From Gammaproteobacteria bacterium (lineage in GTDB: Bacteria; Pseudomonadota; Gammaproteobacteria; Xanthomonadales; Wenzhouxiangellaceae): 33,913 bases of DNA. Numbering within the stretch: the stretch's first letter is position 1; every line of letters starts with the position of its first letter. Below are positions 17,961 through 27,097 of the stretch, one piece after another. The DNA lies in NCBI GenBank assembly GCA_003560975.1, contig PWJA01000109.1:1-33913 (forward strand). Reading direction: 5' to 3'. Position numbers and translations under genes: made by a program. Under the pieces are notes generated by a model. The model saw nothing but the letters and a program-made list of their open reading frames with translations, searched no databases and was not told the DNA's origin.

Positions 17961-18965
17961 CTAGTCCTGGGCCCAGAGCTGTTTCTCGAGCGCGGCAACC
18001 AGCCCGCGGCGAGCCTCCAGGGCGGCCAGGCCGACCGCGTGGGCCAGACCGCTTGCGGATGCGCCGCCGTGACTCTTGATCACGGTTCCTCTCACACCCA
18101 GCATTGGCGCTCCATTATGCCGGGCCGGATCCAGGCTGTCATGCAGGCGTCGCAGGCGCGATCGGGCCATCAGTCCGCACAGGCTACCCGCAAACGCAGT
18201 CCGGAGTTCGCCGAACATCATGCGAACCGCGCCTTCGGCGCTTTTCAGCAGGACGTTCCCGGAAAACCCGTCGCAGACCACCAGGTCGACGGTGCCGGCG
18301 AAAACCTGGTCGGCCTCGACGAAACCGCGATAATCCAGCCCTTCGATCGCCTCGATGCGCCTGCCGGCCTCGCGCACGCGGTCCGGGCCCTTGTTGGGTT
18401 CGACTCCGATATTGAGCAATCCGATCGCCGGGGGCCGACCGTTGAGGGCCGAGACCGCGACGTGCCCGAGGCGCGCGAATTCGCACAGACGGCGGGCGTC
18501 GACCTCGAGGTTGGCGCCAAGGTCCAGCATCCACGCGGTACCCGAGGCGGTTGGCAAGGCGGCCATGAGCGCGGGCCGGTCGATACCCGGGAGCATGCCG
18601 AGAAGATGGCGCGCGAGCACCATCAAGGCACCGGTGCTGCCGGCGCTGACCGCGGCTTCGGCCGAGCCGTCGGCGACCAGGCTCAGACAAACGCCCATGG
18701 AACTGTCCGCGCCGCGCCGCAAGGCGATGGCCGGACCGGCATCTGCCGGCAGCGTAGAGCCGGCGGTCAGCAGATCAATCCGGTTCCTGACGCCATCCGG
18801 CCACGCCGTCATGGTGTCGGCCAGTCGCTCGGAGTCTCCCACCAGCAGAAGCCGCAGCTGCGGATCCCTGGTCAGGGCCAGCCGGCACGCCTCGAGACTG
18901 ACGGCGCTGCCGCCGTCGCCGCTCATGGCATCGACGGCGATGCGAACGAGATCGTTCGGGTTCAA
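17961..18965 (-). CDS. plsX: Phosphate acyltransferase PlsX
   Basis: Makes acyl-phosphate from acyl-ACP, the donor for PlsY in phospholipid synthesis, at the membrane surface. The 334 residues include [11 protein letters not shown] near the start (the family usually reads DAMGGD, so one Gly is Ser here), [48 protein letters not shown] and [17 protein letters not shown]. No suitable ATG precedes the conserved region; the frame begins with TTG at 18965, 19 bases after the rpmF stop, with no strong ribosome binding site. Expression may depend on translation of rpmF. Confidence 0.92.
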
Positions 18966-18984
18966 GGCCGCACCAGCCGGCGGC

Positions 18985-19188
18985 TCAGGATTCGTCGTCG
19001 TCTTCTTCGATCTCCGGGGCTACTTCGATGACCTGGCGGCCCCGGTAGAAGCCTTCGGCGGAGACGTGGTGTCTACGGTGGGTTTCGCCCGTGCTCGCTT
19101 CTTCCGCCAGCGTCGGAGCGCTCAGGCGGTCGTGCGAGCGACGCATGCCGCGCCGGGACGGTGTTTTTCGGCTCTTCTGAACGGCCAT
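18985..19188 (-). CDS. rpmF: Large ribosomal subunit protein bL32
   Basis: The 67-residue basic protein has the family pattern [21 protein letters not shown], then [22 protein letters not shown]. It has no cysteine, so it is the zinc-free form. Compared with the 57 residues of E. coli L32 it carries a strongly acidic extension after the usual end ([12 protein letters not shown]). The ATG follows AGGAG at about nine bases. It sits between yceD and plsX, the conserved order that couples ribosome and lipid synthesis genes. Confidence 0.95.
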
Positions 19189-19209
19189 TGCTGTGTACTC
19201 CTGCTCGGT

Positions 19210-19722
19210 CTAGTCCTTGTCTACCTTGCCGGCCAGTCGGGCCAGGTCGGCGAACGGTCGATGTGTCTCGGACGGCGCAGATCGTTCGCGATCCCCAACC
19301 GGTGCCGAGTCCGGCGCCCTGGGTACCAGCGGCAAACCCAGCAGCAATTCTTCTGCAATCAAATCTTCCAGCCGAATCCTGGACTCCTCCAGCACCAGCG
19401 GATCGTAATCTTCGGGCAGCGCTTCGGCCGCTCGAAGGCTGTCCACCATGCCGACTACCGATGCACTGTCGATGGGCTGCTGGTAGCGTTTCAGAGTGCG
19501 CTGACAGACCATCGGCACGAGGCCGTAGACCCGCACGCGGGCACACGCCTGGCGCTGGTCATCGAGATGGAAGCCGATCTCGAAGCCGATTTCATCGCCG
19601 TCGGCCGGGTCGATCAAGTCCAGTACCCGGTCCAGTCGCGTCAGCAATACACTGCCGCTGAACTCTCGCCGGGCCTGGGCTGCCTTGTGCGGATTGATCC
19701 AATCCGGATAGTCACGCGACAT
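19210..19722 (-). CDS. yceD: YceD/DUF177 large rRNA accumulation protein
   Basis: The 170-residue acidic protein matches the DUF177 family: GFHLDDQRQACARVRVYG, the single-cysteine MVCQRTLKRYQQPID, and a C-terminal PFADLARLAGK similar to the family's NPFAAL end. In E. coli YceD is needed for normal 23S rRNA levels and is linked to ribosome assembly. It is the first gene of the minus-strand array, with a promoter-like sequence just upstream, and lies 57 bases from divergent maf. An extra variable segment (~130-155) precedes the C-terminal motif. Confidence 0.88.
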   Translation of the reverse strand: MSRDYPDWINPHKAAQARREFSGSVLLTRLDRVLDLIDPADGDEIGFEIGFHLDDQRQACARVRVYGLVPMVCQRTLKRYQQPIDSASVVGMVDSLRAAEALPEDYDPLVLEESRIRLEDLIAEELLLGLPLVPRAPDSAPVGDRERSAPSETHRPFADLARLAGKVDKD

Positions 19723-19731
19723 AAGCCCGCC

Positions 19732-19761
19732 AGTATATCATTCAGAATCCGTCACTCACAA
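19732..19761 (-). promoter_or_regulatory. Candidate sigma-70 promoter for the yceD-rpmF-fab array
   Basis: On the minus strand TTGTGA (19761-19756) is followed after 18 bases by TATACT (19737-19732). The -10 is close to consensus. Start would fall near 19725, only a few bases before the yceD ATG at 19722, so the transcript would be nearly leaderless for yceD unless the start or promoter call is wrong. Confidence 0.4.
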
Positions 19762-19779
19762 TAGCTGCTGGCCACTTTC

Positions 19780-20452: not shown

Positions 20453-22471
20453 ATGGCCGCCTCCGCATCCGAATTGCAGGAATTCAAGCACTGGAAGATC
20501 GAACACGACCAGGATGGAATCGCCTGGCTCTGGATCGACCACGGCAAGGAAAAGGTCAACAGCCTGGGAACCGAAATTCTGGCCGAGCTGGAAACCATCG
20601 TCGCCGAGCTGGAAAACAACCGGCCGACGGGACTGGTTCTGATGTCGGGCAAGCCCAAGAGCTTCATCGTGGGCGCGGACGTGCGCGAATTCGACGCCAC
20701 CAGCGACGTCAGCGTGCTGGAAGAAAACGTGCGCAAGGTGCACGGCCTGTTTCAGCGCATCGAAGACCTGCCCTTCCCCACCGTGGTCGCCTTCGAGGGA
20801 TACTGCCTGGGCGGCGGACTGGAACTGGCCTTGTGCTTCGACTGGCGCATCGCCCTGGATGCCGAACACACCCGGATCGGGTTCCCCGAGGTCAACCTGG
20901 GCATCTATCCCGGTTTCGGTGGCTCGGGACGCGCGATTTCCGCCATCGGTCCGGTCAAGGCCATGCAGATCATGCTGACCGGGCGCATGCTGCGGGCCCG
21001 GGCGGCGCGCGCCATGGGCCTGGTCGATCAGGTCGTCGATATCCACGGCTCCCTTCGCTGGGCAGCCCGCAATGCCGTCCTGCGCAAAAAGCGGCACAAG
21101 CGCCCCGGCGTATTCACCCGCATGAGCGCAGCCGGTCCGGTTCGGGGCATCCTGGCCCGGCAAATGCGCAAGCAGACGGCAGCCAAGGCACGCCAGGAGC
21201 ACTATCCGGCGCCGTTCGAACTGATCGATGCCTTCGAGGCGGCCGGGAACTCCCAGGCGGGCATGATCCGGCTGGAAGCGGAAAAAGTGCCGCGCCTGCT
21301 GGCCGGCGAGACCTCGCGCAATCTTCGACGGGTGTTTCGTCTGATGGAGCAGCTCAAGGCCCAGGGCAAGCGGTCCTCGTTCCGGGCACGCAGAGTCCAC
21401 GTCATTGGCGCCGGCGTCATGGGGGGCGATATCGCCGCCTGGTGCGCGACGCGGGGTCTGGAGGTCACGCTCCAGGACCGGGAACTGAAATACGTCAAAC
21501 CGGCCCTGAAACGGGCCGAATCGCTGTTCAAGCGCAAGCTGAAGACGCCTCAGGCGGTGGCAGCGGCACGCCAGCGCCTGATGGCCGATGTCGACGGCGC
21601 TGGCGCGGCCCGGGCCGATGTCATCATCGAGGCGATTTTCGAAGACCGGGATGCCAAGCGCGAGCTGTTTGCCAACCTCAAGGGCAAGCTGGCCGAACAC
21701 GCCCTGGTTGCCACCAACACCTCGGCGATCCCGCTGGCGGAACTGTCCGATGTTCTGGACGATCCGTCGCGCATGATCGGCCTGCACTTTTTCAATCCGG
21801 TGGCGAAAATGCCGTTGGTCGAAATCGTTCACGACGCCAAGAGCGATCCGCAGCGGGTGGCGGACGGATCGAGTTTCGCCACCCAGATCGGAAAGTACGC
21901 GTTGCCGGTCACGTCGACTCCTGGATTCCTGGTCAACCGGGTTCTGGCGCCGTACATGCGCAATGCCATGAAAATGCACCGCGAGGGCATCCCAAGGGAA
22001 GCGCTGGACAAGGCGGCCGAACAGTTCGGAATGCCGATGGGACCGGTCGAGCTGGCCGATACCGTCGGGCTGGACGTCGGCCTGGGCGTGATCGACACCC
22101 TGATGGGAGAGAACGCCGGTGAAGACCGGAAGGTGCTGGAGGAAATGGTCAAGGAAGGCAAGCTCGGCAAGAAGTCCGGCGAGGGCTTTTATCAGTGGAA
22201 GAAAGGCAAGCCACAGCGCGAGCCCAAGGCGCATGAGGGATACGATCTCGACCATCTGGCCCGCCAGCTCATGGCGCCCTATTTCGAGGAGTGCCAGGCA
22301 TGCCTGAAAGACGAGGTCGTGGAAAACGCGGATCTGCTCGATGCCGGAATGATCTTTGGTACCGGCTTCGCCCCCTTCCGCGGTGGCCCGCTGCACTACC
22401 TCGATCAACAGGACGATCATCCAGACCCGTCTGAAACCGAATCCGAATCAACTGAAGGGGAGGCATCCTGA
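20453..22471 (+). CDS. fadJ: Multifunctional beta-oxidation enzyme, FadJ/FadB-like alpha subunit
   Basis: A fusion of enoyl-CoA hydratase and 3-hydroxyacyl-CoA dehydrogenase. Residues ~15-200 are the crotonase domain with Glu124 in LGGGLELALCFDW and Glu146 in GFPEVNLGIYPGFGG. From about residue 315 the NAD-binding VHVIGAGVMGGDIA begins, followed by GLHFFNPVAKMPLVEIV and STPGFLVNRVLAPY. The ATG at 20453 is chosen because AAGGA ends six bases before it; earlier in-frame starts lack a ribosome site. At 672 residues it is somewhat shorter than E. coli FadJ (714). Its TGA shares one base with the fadI ATG. FadJ rather than FadB is favoured by the alpha-then-FadI-like-thiolase pair, with moderate certainty. 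Confidence 0.9.
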   Translation: MAASASELQEFKHWKIEHDQDGIAWLWIDHGKEKVNSLGTEILAELETIVAELENNRPTGLVLMSGKPKSFIVGADVREFDATSDVSVLEENVRKVHGLFQRIEDLPFPTVVAFEGYCLGGGLELALCFDWRIALDAEHTRIGFPEVNLGIYPGFGGSGRAISAIGPVKAMQIMLTGRMLRARAARAMGLVDQVVDIHGSLRWAARNAVLRKKRHKRPGVFTRMSAAGPVRGILARQMRKQTAAKARQEHYPAPFELIDAFEAAGNSQAGMIRLEAEKVPRLLAGETSRNLRRVFRLMEQLKAQGKRSSFRARRVHVIGAGVMGGDIAAWCATRGLEVTLQDRELKYVKPALKRAESLFKRKLKTPQAVAAARQRLMADVDGAGAARADVIIEAIFEDRDAKRELFANLKGKLAEHALVATNTSAIPLAELSDVLDDPSRMIGLHFFNPVAKMPLVEIVHDAKSDPQRVADGSSFATQIGKYALPVTSTPGFLVNRVLAPYMRNAMKMHREGIPREALDKAAEQFGMPMGPVELADTVGLDVGLGVIDTLMGENAGEDRKVLEEMVKEGKLGKKSGEGFYQWKKGKPQREPKAHEGYDLDHLARQLMAPYFEECQACLKDEVVENADLLDAGMIFGTGFAPFRGGPLHYLDQQDDHPDPSETESESTEGEAS

Positions 22472-23910
22472 TGTCGACCAGTGCGTTGCGCAAGATTGTC
22501 GTCGTCGGCGGTACACGAATTCCTTTCTGTCGCTCGAATACCCTGTACGCCGACCAGACCAACCAGGACATGCTCACCAGCGCCATTCAGGGGCTGGTCG
22601 ACCGCTATGAGCTCGACGGCAAGCAGCTCGACCAGGTCATCGCCGGCGCCGTGACCACGCATTCCAAGGACTGGAACCTGGCCCGCGAAGCCGTGCTGTC
22701 GACCTCGCTGTCGCCGCTGACCCCGGCGGTGACCATGCAGCAAGCCTGTGGAACCAGTCTGCAGGCCGCGCTACTGGCCGGGGCCCAGATCGCCTCCGGC
22801 CAGATCGAGTGCGCGATCGTGGCAGGCACCGACACCACCAGCGATGTCCCGGTCGTTTTTCAGCGCCGTTTCGCTCAGCGCCTGGTCAAGCTCAGCCGGG
22901 CCCGTTCGCTGGGGCAGAAATTGGCCACCCTGAAGGGATTCGGTTTCGGCGAACTTGCCCCCCAGCCGCCACGCAACGCCGAGCCCCGAACCGGGCTGTC
23001 CATGGGCCAGCATTGCGAACGCATGGCCAAGGAGTGGCAAATCAGCCGCTCGGATCAAGACGAACTCACTCTGGAAAGTCACCGCAAGGCGGCGGCGGCC
23101 TGGGACGCGGGCTTTTTCGATGACCTGGTCATCAGCCACAACGGCGTGATTCGCGACAACATCGTGCGGCCGGACACCAGCCTGGACAAGCTGGCATCGC
23201 TGAAACCGGCCTTCGACCGCAAGAATGGCACGCTTACGGCCGGCAACAGCACCACGCTCAGCGACGGCGCGGCCGCGGTTCTGATCTGCTCCGAAGAATG
23301 GGCGCGCGCCAACGATCTGCCGATTACCGCCTACCTCTCCCACGGCCGCAGCGCCGCGGTCGATTACGTCAACCGCGACGAAGGTCTGCTGATGGCGCCG
23401 ACCGTGGCCGTGGCCGAGATGCTGCAGCGGGCGGAGCTTGGCCTGGACCAGTTCGACTTCTTCGAGATTCATGAAGCGTTCGCCGCGCAGGTCCTGTGCA
23501 CCCTCAAAGCCTGGGAGTCGAAAGACTACTGCTCCGATCGACTCGGCCTGGACAAACCGCTGGGCAGGGTGGATCGCAGCCGCATGAACGTGCGCGGCGG
23601 CTCCGTGGCCATTGGCCACCCGTTTGCCGCCACCGGCGCCCGGGTTCTGGCAACGCTGGCCGCCACCCTGGAACAGGCCGGCTCCGGGCGTGGCCTGATC
23701 TCGGTGTGCACGGCCGGCGGCATGGGCGTTGCCGCGATCCTTGAGCGGCCCAGTGCCGCGGCAAAAGGCGGCGCCAAAGCGCCTGACCCGGAACCGGCGA
23801 CTGAACCCACGCAACCCGCCACCCCCAGGCCGAAACGGGCCGGGAAGAAAACCGGGAAGAAAAAAACCGCGAAAAAGGCCGACCCGCCTACGGGCGTCGA
23901 CCCCGAGTAA
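22471..23910 (+). CDS. fadI: 3-ketoacyl-CoA thiolase, FadI-like, with lysine-rich C-terminal tail
   Basis: Cleaves 3-ketoacyl-CoA in the last beta-oxidation step, as the beta subunit partner of the preceding gene. Catalytic residues are Cys93 (QQACGTSLQAA), His334 (FEIHEAFAAQV), His383 (GGSVAIGHPFAATGAR) and Cys413 (SVCTAGGMGVA). The thiolase fold ends near residue 427 (AAILERP), close to the usual 436. A further ~52 residues rich in Pro, Ala and Lys follow, including KKTGKKKTAKKA, a disordered basic tail that is not part of the family. A run of seven A lies at 23860-23866 inside it. Translation is coupled to fadJ by TGATG. The stop is three bases from the convergent TRAP-like gene. Confidence 0.93.
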   Translation: MSTSALRKIVVVGGTRIPFCRSNTLYADQTNQDMLTSAIQGLVDRYELDGKQLDQVIAGAVTTHSKDWNLAREAVLSTSLSPLTPAVTMQQACGTSLQAALLAGAQIASGQIECAIVAGTDTTSDVPVVFQRRFAQRLVKLSRARSLGQKLATLKGFGFGELAPQPPRNAEPRTGLSMGQHCERMAKEWQISRSDQDELTLESHRKAAAAWDAGFFDDLVISHNGVIRDNIVRPDTSLDKLASLKPAFDRKNGTLTAGNSTTLSDGAAAVLICSEEWARANDLPITAYLSHGRSAAVDYVNRDEGLLMAPTVAVAEMLQRAELGLDQFDFFEIHEAFAAQVLCTLKAWESKDYCSDRLGLDKPLGRVDRSRMNVRGGSVAIGHPFAATGARVLATLAATLEQAGSGRGLISVCTAGGMGVAAILERPSAAAKGGAKAPDPEPATEPTQPATPRPKRAGKKTGKKKTAKKADPPTGVDPE

Positions 23911-23913
23911 CGC

Positions 23914-25089
23914 TTACAGCAGTCCCGGCAGCCACACCGTCAAGGCGGGCCACAGCGCCACGCCCACCAGCGCGGTCAGCGACAGCGCTTCGACTCGCGA
24001 GGGGCGAAGGCCGGCCCTGATCGAGGGCCAGGTGTGGCCGACGCTCAGCGCCAGCACGGTCAAGACAACCAGCTGCTCGGGCGCCAGGCCTCCTCTCAGG
24101 CCCATCGGAAGCAGGATCGGCGCACAAACGATCAGGGCTGGAAGTGGGCGGAGCAGCGCGGCTGCCGACAGCCAGGCCGCAGCGACCGCCAGGGCCAGTA
24201 GAGCCTCAGCAGTGCCGGACACGATCCGGGTCCCGACCCAGACTTCACTCAGGCCCAGGCTGGCGACCACGCTCGACCAGACCACGCCCAGGCCGAACAA
24301 CACCCCCACACTGCCGAAAGGCATCAGCGCGCGCGCCATCGCGGCCGACCCTTGAGGCCAGCGCTGCTGCCCGGCCAGCAACCGATTCAGCCCCAGGCTG
24401 AGTGCAATCGCCCCTGCCGCGGCAAAAGGGGGCCAGAAACCGGCATACAGACCAACCACCAGCAGCAACGGCAGCAGGCGCAAAAGGACAAGCTCGGAAC
24501 CGCGCCGGTCGACCGCCCCCGGCAGGGACGCCGATGGTGTCCTTGCAGCCAGCGACAGCAGCCAGGATGTCGCCAGGAGGATCAGGGCCGGCAGCAAGCC
24601 GGCCAGGAGCAGAGCCTGAAAACCCGGCGTTTGCGCGGGCGCGACGACTTCGAGCATCAGGGCGGCCAGAAGCAGGTAGAGGCTGGGGGCGAAGAGGCGC
24701 CCGGCCACGCTCTGCATGGACGCAACCGGTGAATCCCCGCCGCGGGGCGCGCCGTGGCCTTGAAGCGCATGGCCGGCGGGCCGCTCCGGAAAATCTTTCG
24801 TGCAGGTCCGCAAGGGCAGCAGGAAGAACACATCGGCAGTCCGGCCCAGTGCGCTCAGCGCTCGCCAACCCGGGCCACCGGCTGCTTCCCTGCGCCTGAC
24901 GAGGTCTCGACCGCGGGCGAACGGCGACCCCACTGGTTGTCCGCTCAGCATCAGCAAGGCCAAGACCGCCAGCAGTTCGAAATTCTCGATTCGACGGAAC
25001 TCCATGGCGATCACCGCCGAATCGATCCCGAAAAGGAAATAGCAACCGAAGGCCGCCAGGACCAGTGCCGCGAACCAGAACAGGGTCAT
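23914..25089 (-). CDS. Degenerate TRAP transporter large permease-like membrane protein
   Basis: The 391-residue protein is mostly hydrophobic, with about ten membrane segments. Parts resemble DctM: IENFELLAVLALLMLSGQ recalls the PLF-L-AG-L entry, and LFAPSLYLLLAALMLEV plus LLLAGLLPALILLATSWLL match the family's IPPS-P-I-Y and LAGI-PGLLLAL region. Between them (~60-130) the small-residue ion-site segment of DctM is replaced by a charged, cysteine-containing stretch, and the large permease is shorter than the usual ~425. It overlaps the upstream small-subunit gene by four bases. No DctP binding protein is present. It may be a divergent transporter, a binding-protein-independent variant, or a decaying one. 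Transport is inferred only. Confidence 0.65.
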   Translation of the reverse strand: MTLFWFAALVLAAFGCYFLFGIDSAVIAMEFRRIENFELLAVLALLMLSGQPVGSPFARGRDLVRRREAAGGPGWRALSALGRTADVFFLLPLRTCTKDFPERPAGHALQGHGAPRGGDSPVASMQSVAGRLFAPSLYLLLAALMLEVVAPAQTPGFQALLLAGLLPALILLATSWLLSLAARTPSASLPGAVDRRGSELVLLRLLPLLLVVGLYAGFWPPFAAAGAIALSLGLNRLLAGQQRWPQGSAAMARALMPFGSVGVLFGLGVVWSSVVASLGLSEVWVGTRIVSGTAEALLALAVAAAWLSAAALLRPLPALIVCAPILLPMGLRGGLAPEQLVVLTVLALSVGHTWPSIRAGLRPSRVEALSLTALVGVALWPALTVWLPGLL

Positions 25090-25616
25090 GCCCGGCCGGT
25101 CGGATCGTTCGTGTCGACCGCGCGAACCGCCTGCTTCCCGCTCAGCGCCCGCGCCAGCAGACGAGCGCTCATCAGCGAAAAGCCGTAGGGGAGAATCAGC
25201 AGCGGAACCCAGCCCGGCAGGCCCAGCGGCCCCGATGAACCGAGACGCAGATCAACGATCAGGTAGCGCAGACTTGCCCAGGCCAGCATCAGGCAACACA
25301 CGGCGCAAATCAGCAGGCCCGAAATTTGCGCGGCGCCGCCCGCAGCGGCAGGCTTCCGACCACCCAGCCGCCGCGATTGCCCGCAGTCTCCTGCGGACGC
25401 GGCCAGCATCGCCGAGAGCATGACGATCCAGAGCAGCGCGGCTGACAAGACGTTGCCGTGGGTCCGCCGGGCCGGGCTTGTGCCGATGGACTGAATCAGT
25501 TCGAGCAGACCGAGAGACAGCATGAGAAGAACCAGCAACATCAGCAGCGTGCGCTCGCCCCACTGCAGCATCTGATCCAGATCCCGCCAGGCCTGTCGCA
25601 AGGGTCCTGGGTCCAT
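25086..25616 (-). CDS. TRAP small permease-like (DctQ-like) membrane protein
   Basis: A 176-residue protein with four predicted membrane segments (TLLMLLVLLMLSLGLLELIQ, LSAALLWIVMLSAMLAAS, ISGLLICAVCCLMLAWASLRYL and GWVPLLILPYGFSLMSARLLARAL). The four-helix layout and the late PY/RLLAR pattern fit the DctQ small subunit of TRAP transporters, as does the four-base overlap with the DctM-like gene. The ATG at 25616 is preferred to an in-frame TTG six bases earlier; neither has a clear ribosome site. It lies 58 bases after folD on the same strand and may share its transcript. The family call is by topology and context. Confidence 0.65.
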   Translation of the reverse strand: MDPGPLRQAWRDLDQMLQWGERTLLMLLVLLMLSLGLLELIQSIGTSPARRTHGNVLSAALLWIVMLSAMLAASAGDCGQSRRLGGRKPAAAGGAAQISGLLICAVCCLMLAWASLRYLIVDLRLGSSGPLGLPGWVPLLILPYGFSLMSARLLARALSGKQAVRAVDTNDPTGRA

Positions 25617-25674
25617 GCTCAAGCGACCGGCACGCGTTCGAAATGGCGAGACCCGCCAGCCCTGGCAAACGGCA

Positions 25675-26544
25675 TCAAGGCGCCATGACCACCAGGCCGG
25701 CCGCCTCGGCGGTGTTCTGCATGAGCGTTGCGACCGTCATCGGGCCGACCCCGCCCGGCACCGGGGTGATCCAGGCTGCCCGCCTGGCACAGGCCTCGAA
25801 GTCCAGGTCTCCCCGAATGCGCCCGTGGGCGTCACGGGTGATACCGATATCCACAACGATTGCGTCGCGGGCAATCCAGTCGGCCTGGACGATATCGGGC
25901 TTGCCGACCGCCACGCAAACCACCTCGGCCATCTCGACATGTTTTTTCAGGTTTCGGGTGAAGCGGTGAGCGACGTTGACCGTTGCCCCGGCCAGGAGCA
26001 TCTCGAGCGCCAGCGGCCGACCTACGATATTGGATGCCCCGACCACGAGTACGTCCCGCCCCTTGACGTCGATACCTTTGGCCCGCAGCAAGGTCATGAC
26101 CCCGCGCGGGGTGCAGGGTCGCAGGCCAGGATCGCGCAGCGTCAGCCTTCCGACGTTGACCGGATGGAAACCGTCCACGTCCTTGGACGGGGAAATCCGG
26201 GCCGTCACCGCCTTTTCATCCAGGTGACCGGGCAGGGGCAACTGAACCAGGATGCCGTCAATTTCCGGATCCTCGTTCAGGGAGTCGAGCAGGGCCAGCA
26301 ATTCCCCTCGGCCGACGCCGTGCTGCAGCGGATAGGAGCGCGAGAGGATGCCGGCGCGCTGGCAGGCCTTGACCTTGTTTCCGACATACACCCTGGATGC
26401 GGGATCGTCACCGACCAGTACGACCGCCAGGCCCGGAGGTCGACCGCCGCGCTCCACGTGACTGCCCACGGCAGCGGCGACGTTGGCGATCAAGCGATCG
26501 GCCACGCTGCGTCCGTCCAGAATCCTTGCGCCTGCATCGTTCAT
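25675..26544 (-). CDS. folD: Methylenetetrahydrofolate dehydrogenase/cyclohydrolase
   Basis: A bifunctional cytosolic enzyme interconverting methylene- and formyl-tetrahydrofolate. Conserved features are YVGNK (Tyr53 and Lys57 of the catalytic YxxxK), VQLPLPGHLDE, PCTPRGVM, the NADP-binding GASNIVGRPLALEML, and the C-terminal PGGVGPMTVATLM. The start at ATG 26544 gives 289 residues, near the usual 285; a GTG three codons upstream is an alternative. It is divergent from the glutathione peroxidase gene across 64 bases and precedes the TRAP-like pair. Confidence 0.95.
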   Translation of the reverse strand: MNDAGARILDGRSVADRLIANVAAAVGSHVERGGRPPGLAVVLVGDDPASRVYVGNKVKACQRAGILSRSYPLQHGVGRGELLALLDSLNEDPEIDGILVQLPLPGHLDEKAVTARISPSKDVDGFHPVNVGRLTLRDPGLRPCTPRGVMTLLRAKGIDVKGRDVLVVGASNIVGRPLALEMLLAGATVNVAHRFTRNLKKHVEMAEVVCVAVGKPDIVQADWIARDAIVVDIGITRDAHGRIRGDLDFEACARRAAWITPVPGGVGPMTVATLMQNTAEAAGLVVMAP

Positions 26545-26608
26545 GTCGTCCACATTCTAGCCGCTACAGGTTAGGATGGCGGAGGGAACCACGCTCCGGG
26601 AGATGGTC

Positions 26609-27097
26609 ATGAACCTGTTCGAATATTCCTTCGCCGCACTCGGCGGTGGCGCGCTCTCGATGGAGCGCTTTCGCAACCAGCCGATTCTGCTGGTCAATAC
26701 CGCATCCGAATGCGGATTTACCCCCCAGTACAAGCAGCTGCAGGCCATTTACAACGACTACAGGCAGTCGGGCCTGGTGGTCGTGGGCATTCCCTGCAAC
26801 GACTTCGGCGAGCAGGAGCCGGGCGACGACGAGGAGATTGCCCGTTTTACGCGCGAGGAATACAGCATCACTTTCCCCATGACCAGCAAGTATTCCGTCA
26901 TCGGTCCGCAATCGCACCCGCTGTTCAAGACCATGGCCGAAGAGTTCGGCGGCGACGTTCTGCCGCGCTGGAATTTCCACAAATACCTTTTCAGCCGCAA
27001 AGGCCAGCTGGTCGAACACTGGCCGTCCAAGGTACCGCCCGACGACCCGGCCGTGACCCATCAGATCACGCGCAACCTGCAGTCCTGGTCGCTCTGA
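26609..27097 (+). CDS. Glutathione peroxidase-family thiol peroxidase
   Basis: A 162-residue thioredoxin-fold peroxidase that reduces hydroperoxides. The peroxidatic Cys35 is in VNTASECGFTPQY; Gln69 (FGEQEPG) and Trp121-Asn122 (RWNFHKYLF) complete the catalytic set. PCNDFG replaces the usual PCNQFG. Start 26609 is chosen because GGGAG lies about six bases upstream and the family normally begins just before this point; a longer open frame from 26576 is less likely. No clear resolving cysteine is visible beyond the conserved PCN cysteine (Cys63). Whether glutathione or thioredoxin is the donor is unknown. It is a single gene, convergent with der. Confidence 0.92.
   Translation: MNLFEYSFAALGGGALSMERFRNQPILLVNTASECGFTPQYKQLQAIYNDYRQSGLVVVGIPCNDFGEQEPGDDEEIARFTREEYSITFPMTSKYSVIGPQSHPLFKTMAEEFGGDVLPRWNFHKYLFSRKGQLVEHWPSKVPPDDPAVTHQITRNLQSWSL

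Follow-up and report, generated by a model that had tools for sequence, protein, structure and literature searches.

The DctQ-DctM gene pair described here lies in a 33,913-nt stretch of DNA (the window, by which we mean the whole of the stretch that was analysed), and it is best explained as a former TRAP permease that has become uncoupled from sodium and from its binding protein and is kept for a residual or altered role in the membrane, a reading to which we would assign a probability of roughly 0.57. The intact membrane parts, which are under selection, suggest that the textbook job has been lost and that there is now another role. A function of the two proteins (Q and M below) is likely, and the pattern of constraint along M together with a fixed change in its HPout segment are the main reasons for favouring an altered role. 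The pair descends from a TPAT-type permease (TatT-DctP-DctQ-DctM) of the kind still found complete beside folD in relatives. Synteny, tree and alignment show that TatT and DctP were deleted and that M then lost HPin, the twin proline of TM11 and the acidic substrate residue; about six lineages of the family followed this route independently, and in a few cases Q and M disappeared afterwards as well. The residual role may be one already held by the complete permease or, alternatively, a sodium-uncoupled one, either passive passage or ligand sensing, at the surviving HPout/TM5 half-site.

Gene pair and locus history

The DctM-like ORF (positions 23914-25089, minus strand, 391 aa; P0001) encodes the large membrane subunit, and the DctQ-like ORF (25086-25616, minus strand, 176 aa; P0002), for which an alternative TTG start is possible at 25622, encodes the small one. 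The four bases ATGA (25086-25089, minus strand) are common to the Q stop and the M start, and this overlap is kept in 12 of 13 loci of the window's kind and in 14 of the 16 complete loci checked. Q matched Pfam family PF04290 (E 8.2e-10, 39.1 bits against a cut-off of 28.3). M matched PF06808 (E 1.2e-5) over profile positions 135-369 of 413 only, reaching 24.8 bits in the protein scan against a cut-off of 23.8 and falling below that cut-off, at 23.5, in the genome scan. Neither protein was named in an NCBIfam scan, M found no match among PDB sequences, SiaQM included (phmmer, E up to 1), and Pfam, NCBIfam and structure searches with M gave no match to an unrelated family; DASS/SLC13 families were not among the Pfam or NCBIfam matches. 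The Wenzhouxiangella family is a group of salt-lake bacteria. The nearest named match to the window is Wenzhouxiangella sp. PLM2.Bin80 (REEW01000050.1), with an M that is 63% identical. Two synteny anchors flank the pair, folD upstream (25675-26553, minus strand; PF02882/PF00763) and a convergent, fadI-like thiolase gene (22471-23910, plus strand; PF00108/PF02803). The original prediction was therefore right that Q and M overlap by four bases as in TRAP transporters (ORF coordinates and Pfam), that the pair derives from a TRAP system (Pfam, fold and synteny; remote-homology searches returned TRAP families and no unrelated membrane family) and that the window contains no DctP gene.

Comparison of the folD locus among 43 genomes of the family reveals several states. 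A complete TPAT-type TRAP system (TatT-DctP-DctQ-DctM) lies beside folD in 18 genomes; TatT (PF16811) and the matching DctP were found, with high scores and adjoining DctM, in exactly these 18, between folD and Q in the complete loci that were read, and at the G012 locus all four genes were confirmed by Pfam. The window genome has no PF16811 match. It is one of 13 genomes (the others being G032, G029, G014, G019, G020, G023, G025, G026, G030, G017, G028 and G013), referred to here as P-less, in which TatT and DctP are absent and Q directly follows folD; the gap is 58 bases in the window, and the other P-less loci have gaps of about 60-200. Q and M have been lost as well in five genomes (G037, G038, G040, G041 and G042), four distant members of the family (G007-G010) have no Q-M beside folD, and three fall outside all classes, namely G011, whose M runs into a contig end, and G022 and G024, for which folD was not found.

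In a nine-gene tree built from 39 genomes (G021, with too few sites, was dropped) the P-less genomes fall into six separate clades, and Fitch parsimony requires 6 changes, or 7 with the four distant genomes. These clades are the window's own, which also holds the Q-M-less G038, G040, G041 and G042; clade B (G023, G025, G026 and G030), joined by its Q-M-less sister G037; and G017, G028, G020 and G013. With 100% support, G017 falls inside a group of complete loci (G034/G016/G039) and G028 is sister to the complete G018; the placement of G020 has 74% support only. Gene trees of M and Q again put G017 and G028 with the same relatives, an agreement that indicates vertical descent, and G020 shifts in them to the clade of the window, which is what a long branch would be expected to do. 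The tree thus implies about six independent losses of TatT and DctP in the family, and synteny, the nine-gene tree and the gene trees all indicate common descent of the window permease with the complete TPAT loci.

Several further features of these genomes were observed. The DctM motifs of G011 (locus L073) are intact up to the contig end, and no TatT or DctP was found in this 97% complete genome. In G037 folD and the thiolase gene are 1.3 kb apart (L055:10338-11655); this interval is without any frame of at least 110 residues, and a search of it for remnants of Q or M gave no convincing one (best E 0.005). G036 has a second folD copy, 46% identical, away from the locus (G036:C1:2909576-2910442), and a second, more distant TatT-like gene occurs elsewhere in seven family genomes (for example G028:C156:9157-9846). 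The gpx gene between folD and der (26576-27097 in the window, and the corresponding position in L031-L067) is of two types, about 60-95% or about 44-49% identical to that of the window, a pattern that would fit two glutathione peroxidases taking turns at the same site.

Losses and retained parts in the M subunit

PMC9971032 gives the sodium-site residues of PpSiaM as S103, S106, G145, V148 and P150, and G325, G366, T369 and M372, with E329 as a substrate-site residue, and PMC10942642 agrees on the sodium and substrate sites of SiaM. These sites and four neighbours, 14 positions in all, were mapped by alignment onto the P-less loci and onto 16 of the 18 complete loci (G005 and G021 were left out). 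All 16 complete loci keep 13-14 of the 14 positions, the exceptions being conservative (V373I in G036 and F145L in G006). P-less loci keep 2-11, G017 the most and the window seven, each lineage eroding the sites in its own way. In the window M the Na1 site is incomplete, the small-residue motif of HPin having been lost and the F-A-P-S of TM5 kept, and the Na2 site is changed, with Ala for Gly in HPout and W-P-S for T-P-P in TM11; the sequence GHTWPSI (M residues 351-357; positions 24019-24039, minus strand) there replaces G-Y-C-T-P-P-V, which is half of the Na2 site and carries the twin proline. The PpSiaQM mutants S106-S108A and T369A retain about 3% activity, according to PMC9971032, and by analogy with such site mutants the loss of HPin, TM11 and the acidic residue would make a sodium-driven, binding-protein-gated elevator cycle hardly possible.

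M residues 52-121 (positions 24727-24936, minus strand), where the arm and HPin have eroded and with them half of the Na1 site, form a charged region that was modelled with low confidence; 17 of its 70 residues are charged and its mean hydropathy is -0.48, compared with 7 of 74 and +1.02 in the counterpart from complete-locus M. The predicted loss of a small-residue ion/substrate segment from the large subunit was therefore correct, the HPin sodium-site segment being gone, and the charged stretch said to stand in its place does exist. The cysteine to which attention had been drawn (C96) is matched by Gly in the nearest relative and so is not a conserved feature, and the idea of a replacement element failed: a new charged, cysteine-bearing functional insert was rejected because the stretch is HPin in an eroded form, with the weakest constraint of any part of M and without a conserved cysteine.

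HPout, by comparison, is the best conserved part of M across the window, G032 and G029, with 19 of 34 columns identical versus 66 of 310 elsewhere (p 4e-5). It includes LLRPLPALI (M residues 312-320; positions 24130-24156, minus strand), identical in these three genomes, in which Arg314 of the window M occupies the acidic substrate-site position of the complete loci, an Asp-to-Arg change seen in three species.

The predicted structure of the window M (pLDDT 72.6, pTM 0.75; residues 101-118 under pLDDT 50) matched the TRAP M fold in Foldseek (E 2e-6) and could be superposed on 7qha_B with Z 24.1 and rmsd 5.2 over 325 aligned residues; the same prediction set-up gave a clear HPin hairpin for M of G012 (pLDDT 84.5, pTM 0.86). 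On this model, for which the alignment fed to the predictor included complete-locus M proteins, the window M retains the TRAP M-subunit fold.

Selection on Q and M, and slow decay as an alternative

Codon models, fitted with an in-house script, gave an omega of 0.317 for both M (dS 0.95) and Q (dS about 0.95) in the pairwise comparison of the window with G032, its nearest relative, omega = 1 being rejected in each case (LRT 56 and 23, respectively). Among the four P-less genomes of clade B the values were 0.272 for M (LRT 166) and 0.295 for Q (LRT 81). Four of six neighbouring genes (folD, fadI, fadJ and der) had an omega of 0.06-0.08 between the window and G032, and the other two, w31797 and w18355, had 0.21 and 0.52, so that a value of about 0.32 is not unique to Q-M in the region. 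The dS of w18355 (window positions 18355-19764) was 0.28, as against 0.63-0.82 in the tested neighbours, for which recombination or a different constraint is possible. The regions of M differ (window-G032, shared neutral time; LRT 43.9, 6 df), with omega 0.047 in HPout, 0.18 in TM5-6 and 0.62 in HPin; HPin, at 0.49-0.62, is the least constrained part and is not clearly distinct from 1 (LRT 2.7 and 3.2). For TM1-3 in clade B we used the value obtained with shared neutral time (0.23; an independent-region fit gave 0.04), and for G029 the branch behind the region omegas is long and close to saturation. In the complete loci the four-taxon omega is 0.001-0.07 by region, so constraint in the P-less loci is much weaker, but HPout in the window pair is constrained as in complete loci. 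These results show that purifying selection has continued to act on Q and M since TatT and DctP were lost, and the concentration of constraint in HPout and TM5-6 suggests that the Q-M complex is probably still made and acts in the membrane.

The Q and M frames are open in all 13 P-less loci, with no stops, frameshifts or loss of start. A neutral simulation, which modelled substitutions only, produced about 7.3 stops per lineage at the measured window-G032 divergence, and no stop at all in a fraction of 0.0005-0.001 of 2000 runs, so that open frames are not expected by chance. The claim that both frames are intact and maintained by selection is upheld by these data. Pseudogene decay in relatives, which the original prediction had named as evidence against itself, was seen in none of the 12 other P-less loci, although Q-M is missing altogether from five of the 43 genomes, which makes the pair dispensable in some.

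One explanation, which we consider unlikely on balance but the most serious rival, is that Q and M became functionless once TatT and DctP were deleted and are slowly on their way out, the frames staying open through the purging of harmful stop and frameshift products, or through deletion of the genes before such changes accumulate. M has accelerated strongly after the loss, its branch omega being 0.107 in G017 versus 0.021 and 0.286 in G028 versus 0.047, on branches of which part of the time precedes the loss, and its branch length in the M tree being 0.44 in G017 versus 0.004 in G016 and 0.021 in G039. Decay would also fit the disappearance of Q-M from the sister of clade B and from four members of the window's clade and the erosion of the sites lineage by lineage, and a lowered omega could also arise, without any function, from selection against membrane proteins that misfold and do harm. 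Against it stand the 13 open loci out of 13 and the small chance per lineage of no stop, the omega of 0.27-0.32 (1 being firmly rejected) in two clades for which the comparison covers only the time after the loss, the uneven constraint, which is concentrated in HPout and TM5-6, and the fixation of residues in a changed state (LLRPLPALI).

Possible partners, related systems and implications

That the pair is still a transporter, either borrowing the DctP of another TRAP system or working without a binding protein by means of another ion or facilitated passage, we regard as improbable. It would be in keeping with the two further DctP genes of the window genome, with the largely intact fold of the model and with the rare TctA without binding protein discussed for the unrelated TTT family in PMC5812351. 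Each of these DctP genes, however, is on a contig with another Q-M pair, one of them being cut by the contig end beside the pair on C70, and an unpaired DctP elsewhere in the window genome was rejected because both adjoin other Q-M pairs. The search of the rest of the genome that had been proposed thus found no unpaired DctP, and neither a DctP-type nor a TAXI binding protein was found with the window pair or left unpaired in its genome. Among 14 genomes examined (the 13 P-less ones and G037) DctP matches were present in ten and wholly absent from the P-less G032, G020, G028 and G013, and neither a DctP of TPAT-locus type nor a TAXI protein is left unpaired in G032 and G019. No TAXI protein was found in the window genome; seven of the 13 P-less genomes have one above the cut-off, with a fused-permease match near each, at about 0.5 kb, and G014 has a match below threshold. 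A shared TAXI partner was accordingly rejected. A transporter would, in addition, have to operate with both sodium sites damaged, when mutation of such sites in PpSiaQM leaves little activity. A fourth, weak DctM match in the window genome, on C245, is to an ORF that by eye resembles an SLC13-type or similar transporter.

It is very improbable that assembly gaps hide TatT and DctP or that frameshift errors create a false charged stretch, for although most of the genomes are metagenome assemblies and the window genome is in 286 contigs, folD and Q are contiguous, the P-less state recurs in 13 genomes, including G017 (276-kb contig) and G014 (492-kb contig), and a frameshift artefact in the window was rejected because the eroded region is common to G032 and in frame, and its GC content by codon position resembles that of the remainder.

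A scan outside the family with the clade A profile, in which M had to reach an E of 1e-15 or lower (a cut-off of our choosing), yielded 79 genomes with a well-matching M, and TatT was present in 78 of these; in the exception, G185, a contig end interrupts the locus, which has DctP, Q and M. Six genomes with weaker matches were examined, of which G092 and G214 have complete TPAT loci; in G047, G060 and G085 a DctP adjoins a different M, and G097 has its match on a 3.9-kb contig. P-less pairs outside the family were therefore rejected, the complete system being the rule, for the well-matching M proteins covered by this profile, which missed the strongly eroded M of G020, so that similar pairs elsewhere could escape the scan. 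Among the matches listed in a search of the open-licence literature there was no account of TRAP permeases without a binding protein or of their decay.

The nearest known system is the TPAT TatT-TatP-TatQM of Treponema pallidum, complete copies of which occur in this family and its order; according to PMC5812351, TRAP systems with the arrangement TatT-DctP-DctQ-DctM are of the TPAT type, which is known from Treponema. The window pair has Q and M orthologous to these by position and sequence, the four-base overlap and, by the model, the same fold, but it lacks TatT and DctP and has lost HPin, the TM11 twin proline and the acidic residue. The best structural matches of the M model are SiaQM entries (PDB 7qha, 8thi, 8thj and 7qe5), a system with two defined sodium sites that is dependent on SiaP, as set out in PMC9971032 and PMC10942642; the window M keeps seven of the 14 positions compared. 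The DASS/SLC13 elevators (VcINDY and relatives), which work without a binding protein, share the same general fold with the modelled M (Z 16-17). Unlike the window M, these elevators keep both hairpins and the sodium sites. PMC9971032 likewise describes the hairpins and sodium sites of DASS/SLC13 proteins as present. An orphan TctA without TctC is similarly a membrane subunit without a binding protein, but it belongs to an unrelated family and, in PMC5812351, such cases are rare or possible search artefacts and not a repeated loss within one family.

The original suggestion of a repurposed, binding-protein-independent membrane system is compatible with our results, above all with the constrained HPout carrying the Asp-to-Arg change; slow decay is a less likely alternative. 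We put forward only tentatively, and as rather doubtful, the more far-reaching proposal that a TRAP permease has been turned repeatedly into a complex free of a binding protein, uncoupled from sodium and new in function, HPout of the window's clade having been remodelled for an anionic ligand. If it were true, the sodium half-sites would have been freed from constraint, and the scaffold and HPout kept, about six times, and HPout of the window's clade (Asp to Arg, LLRPLPALI) would fit a ligand-contacting sensor or a facilitator for an anionic compound.

To our knowledge, TRAP transporters are taken as strictly binding-protein-dependent. At one chromosomal position in related genomes, the family offers a series from complete systems, through binding-protein-less ones with graded erosion, to absence. 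The series reveals which permease parts sodium coupling requires, these being freed first, and which remain under constraint once it is gone, and it provides a natural way of testing whether Q-M has a role beyond transport. It is also a warning that a DctQ/DctM annotation alone does not amount to an uptake system.
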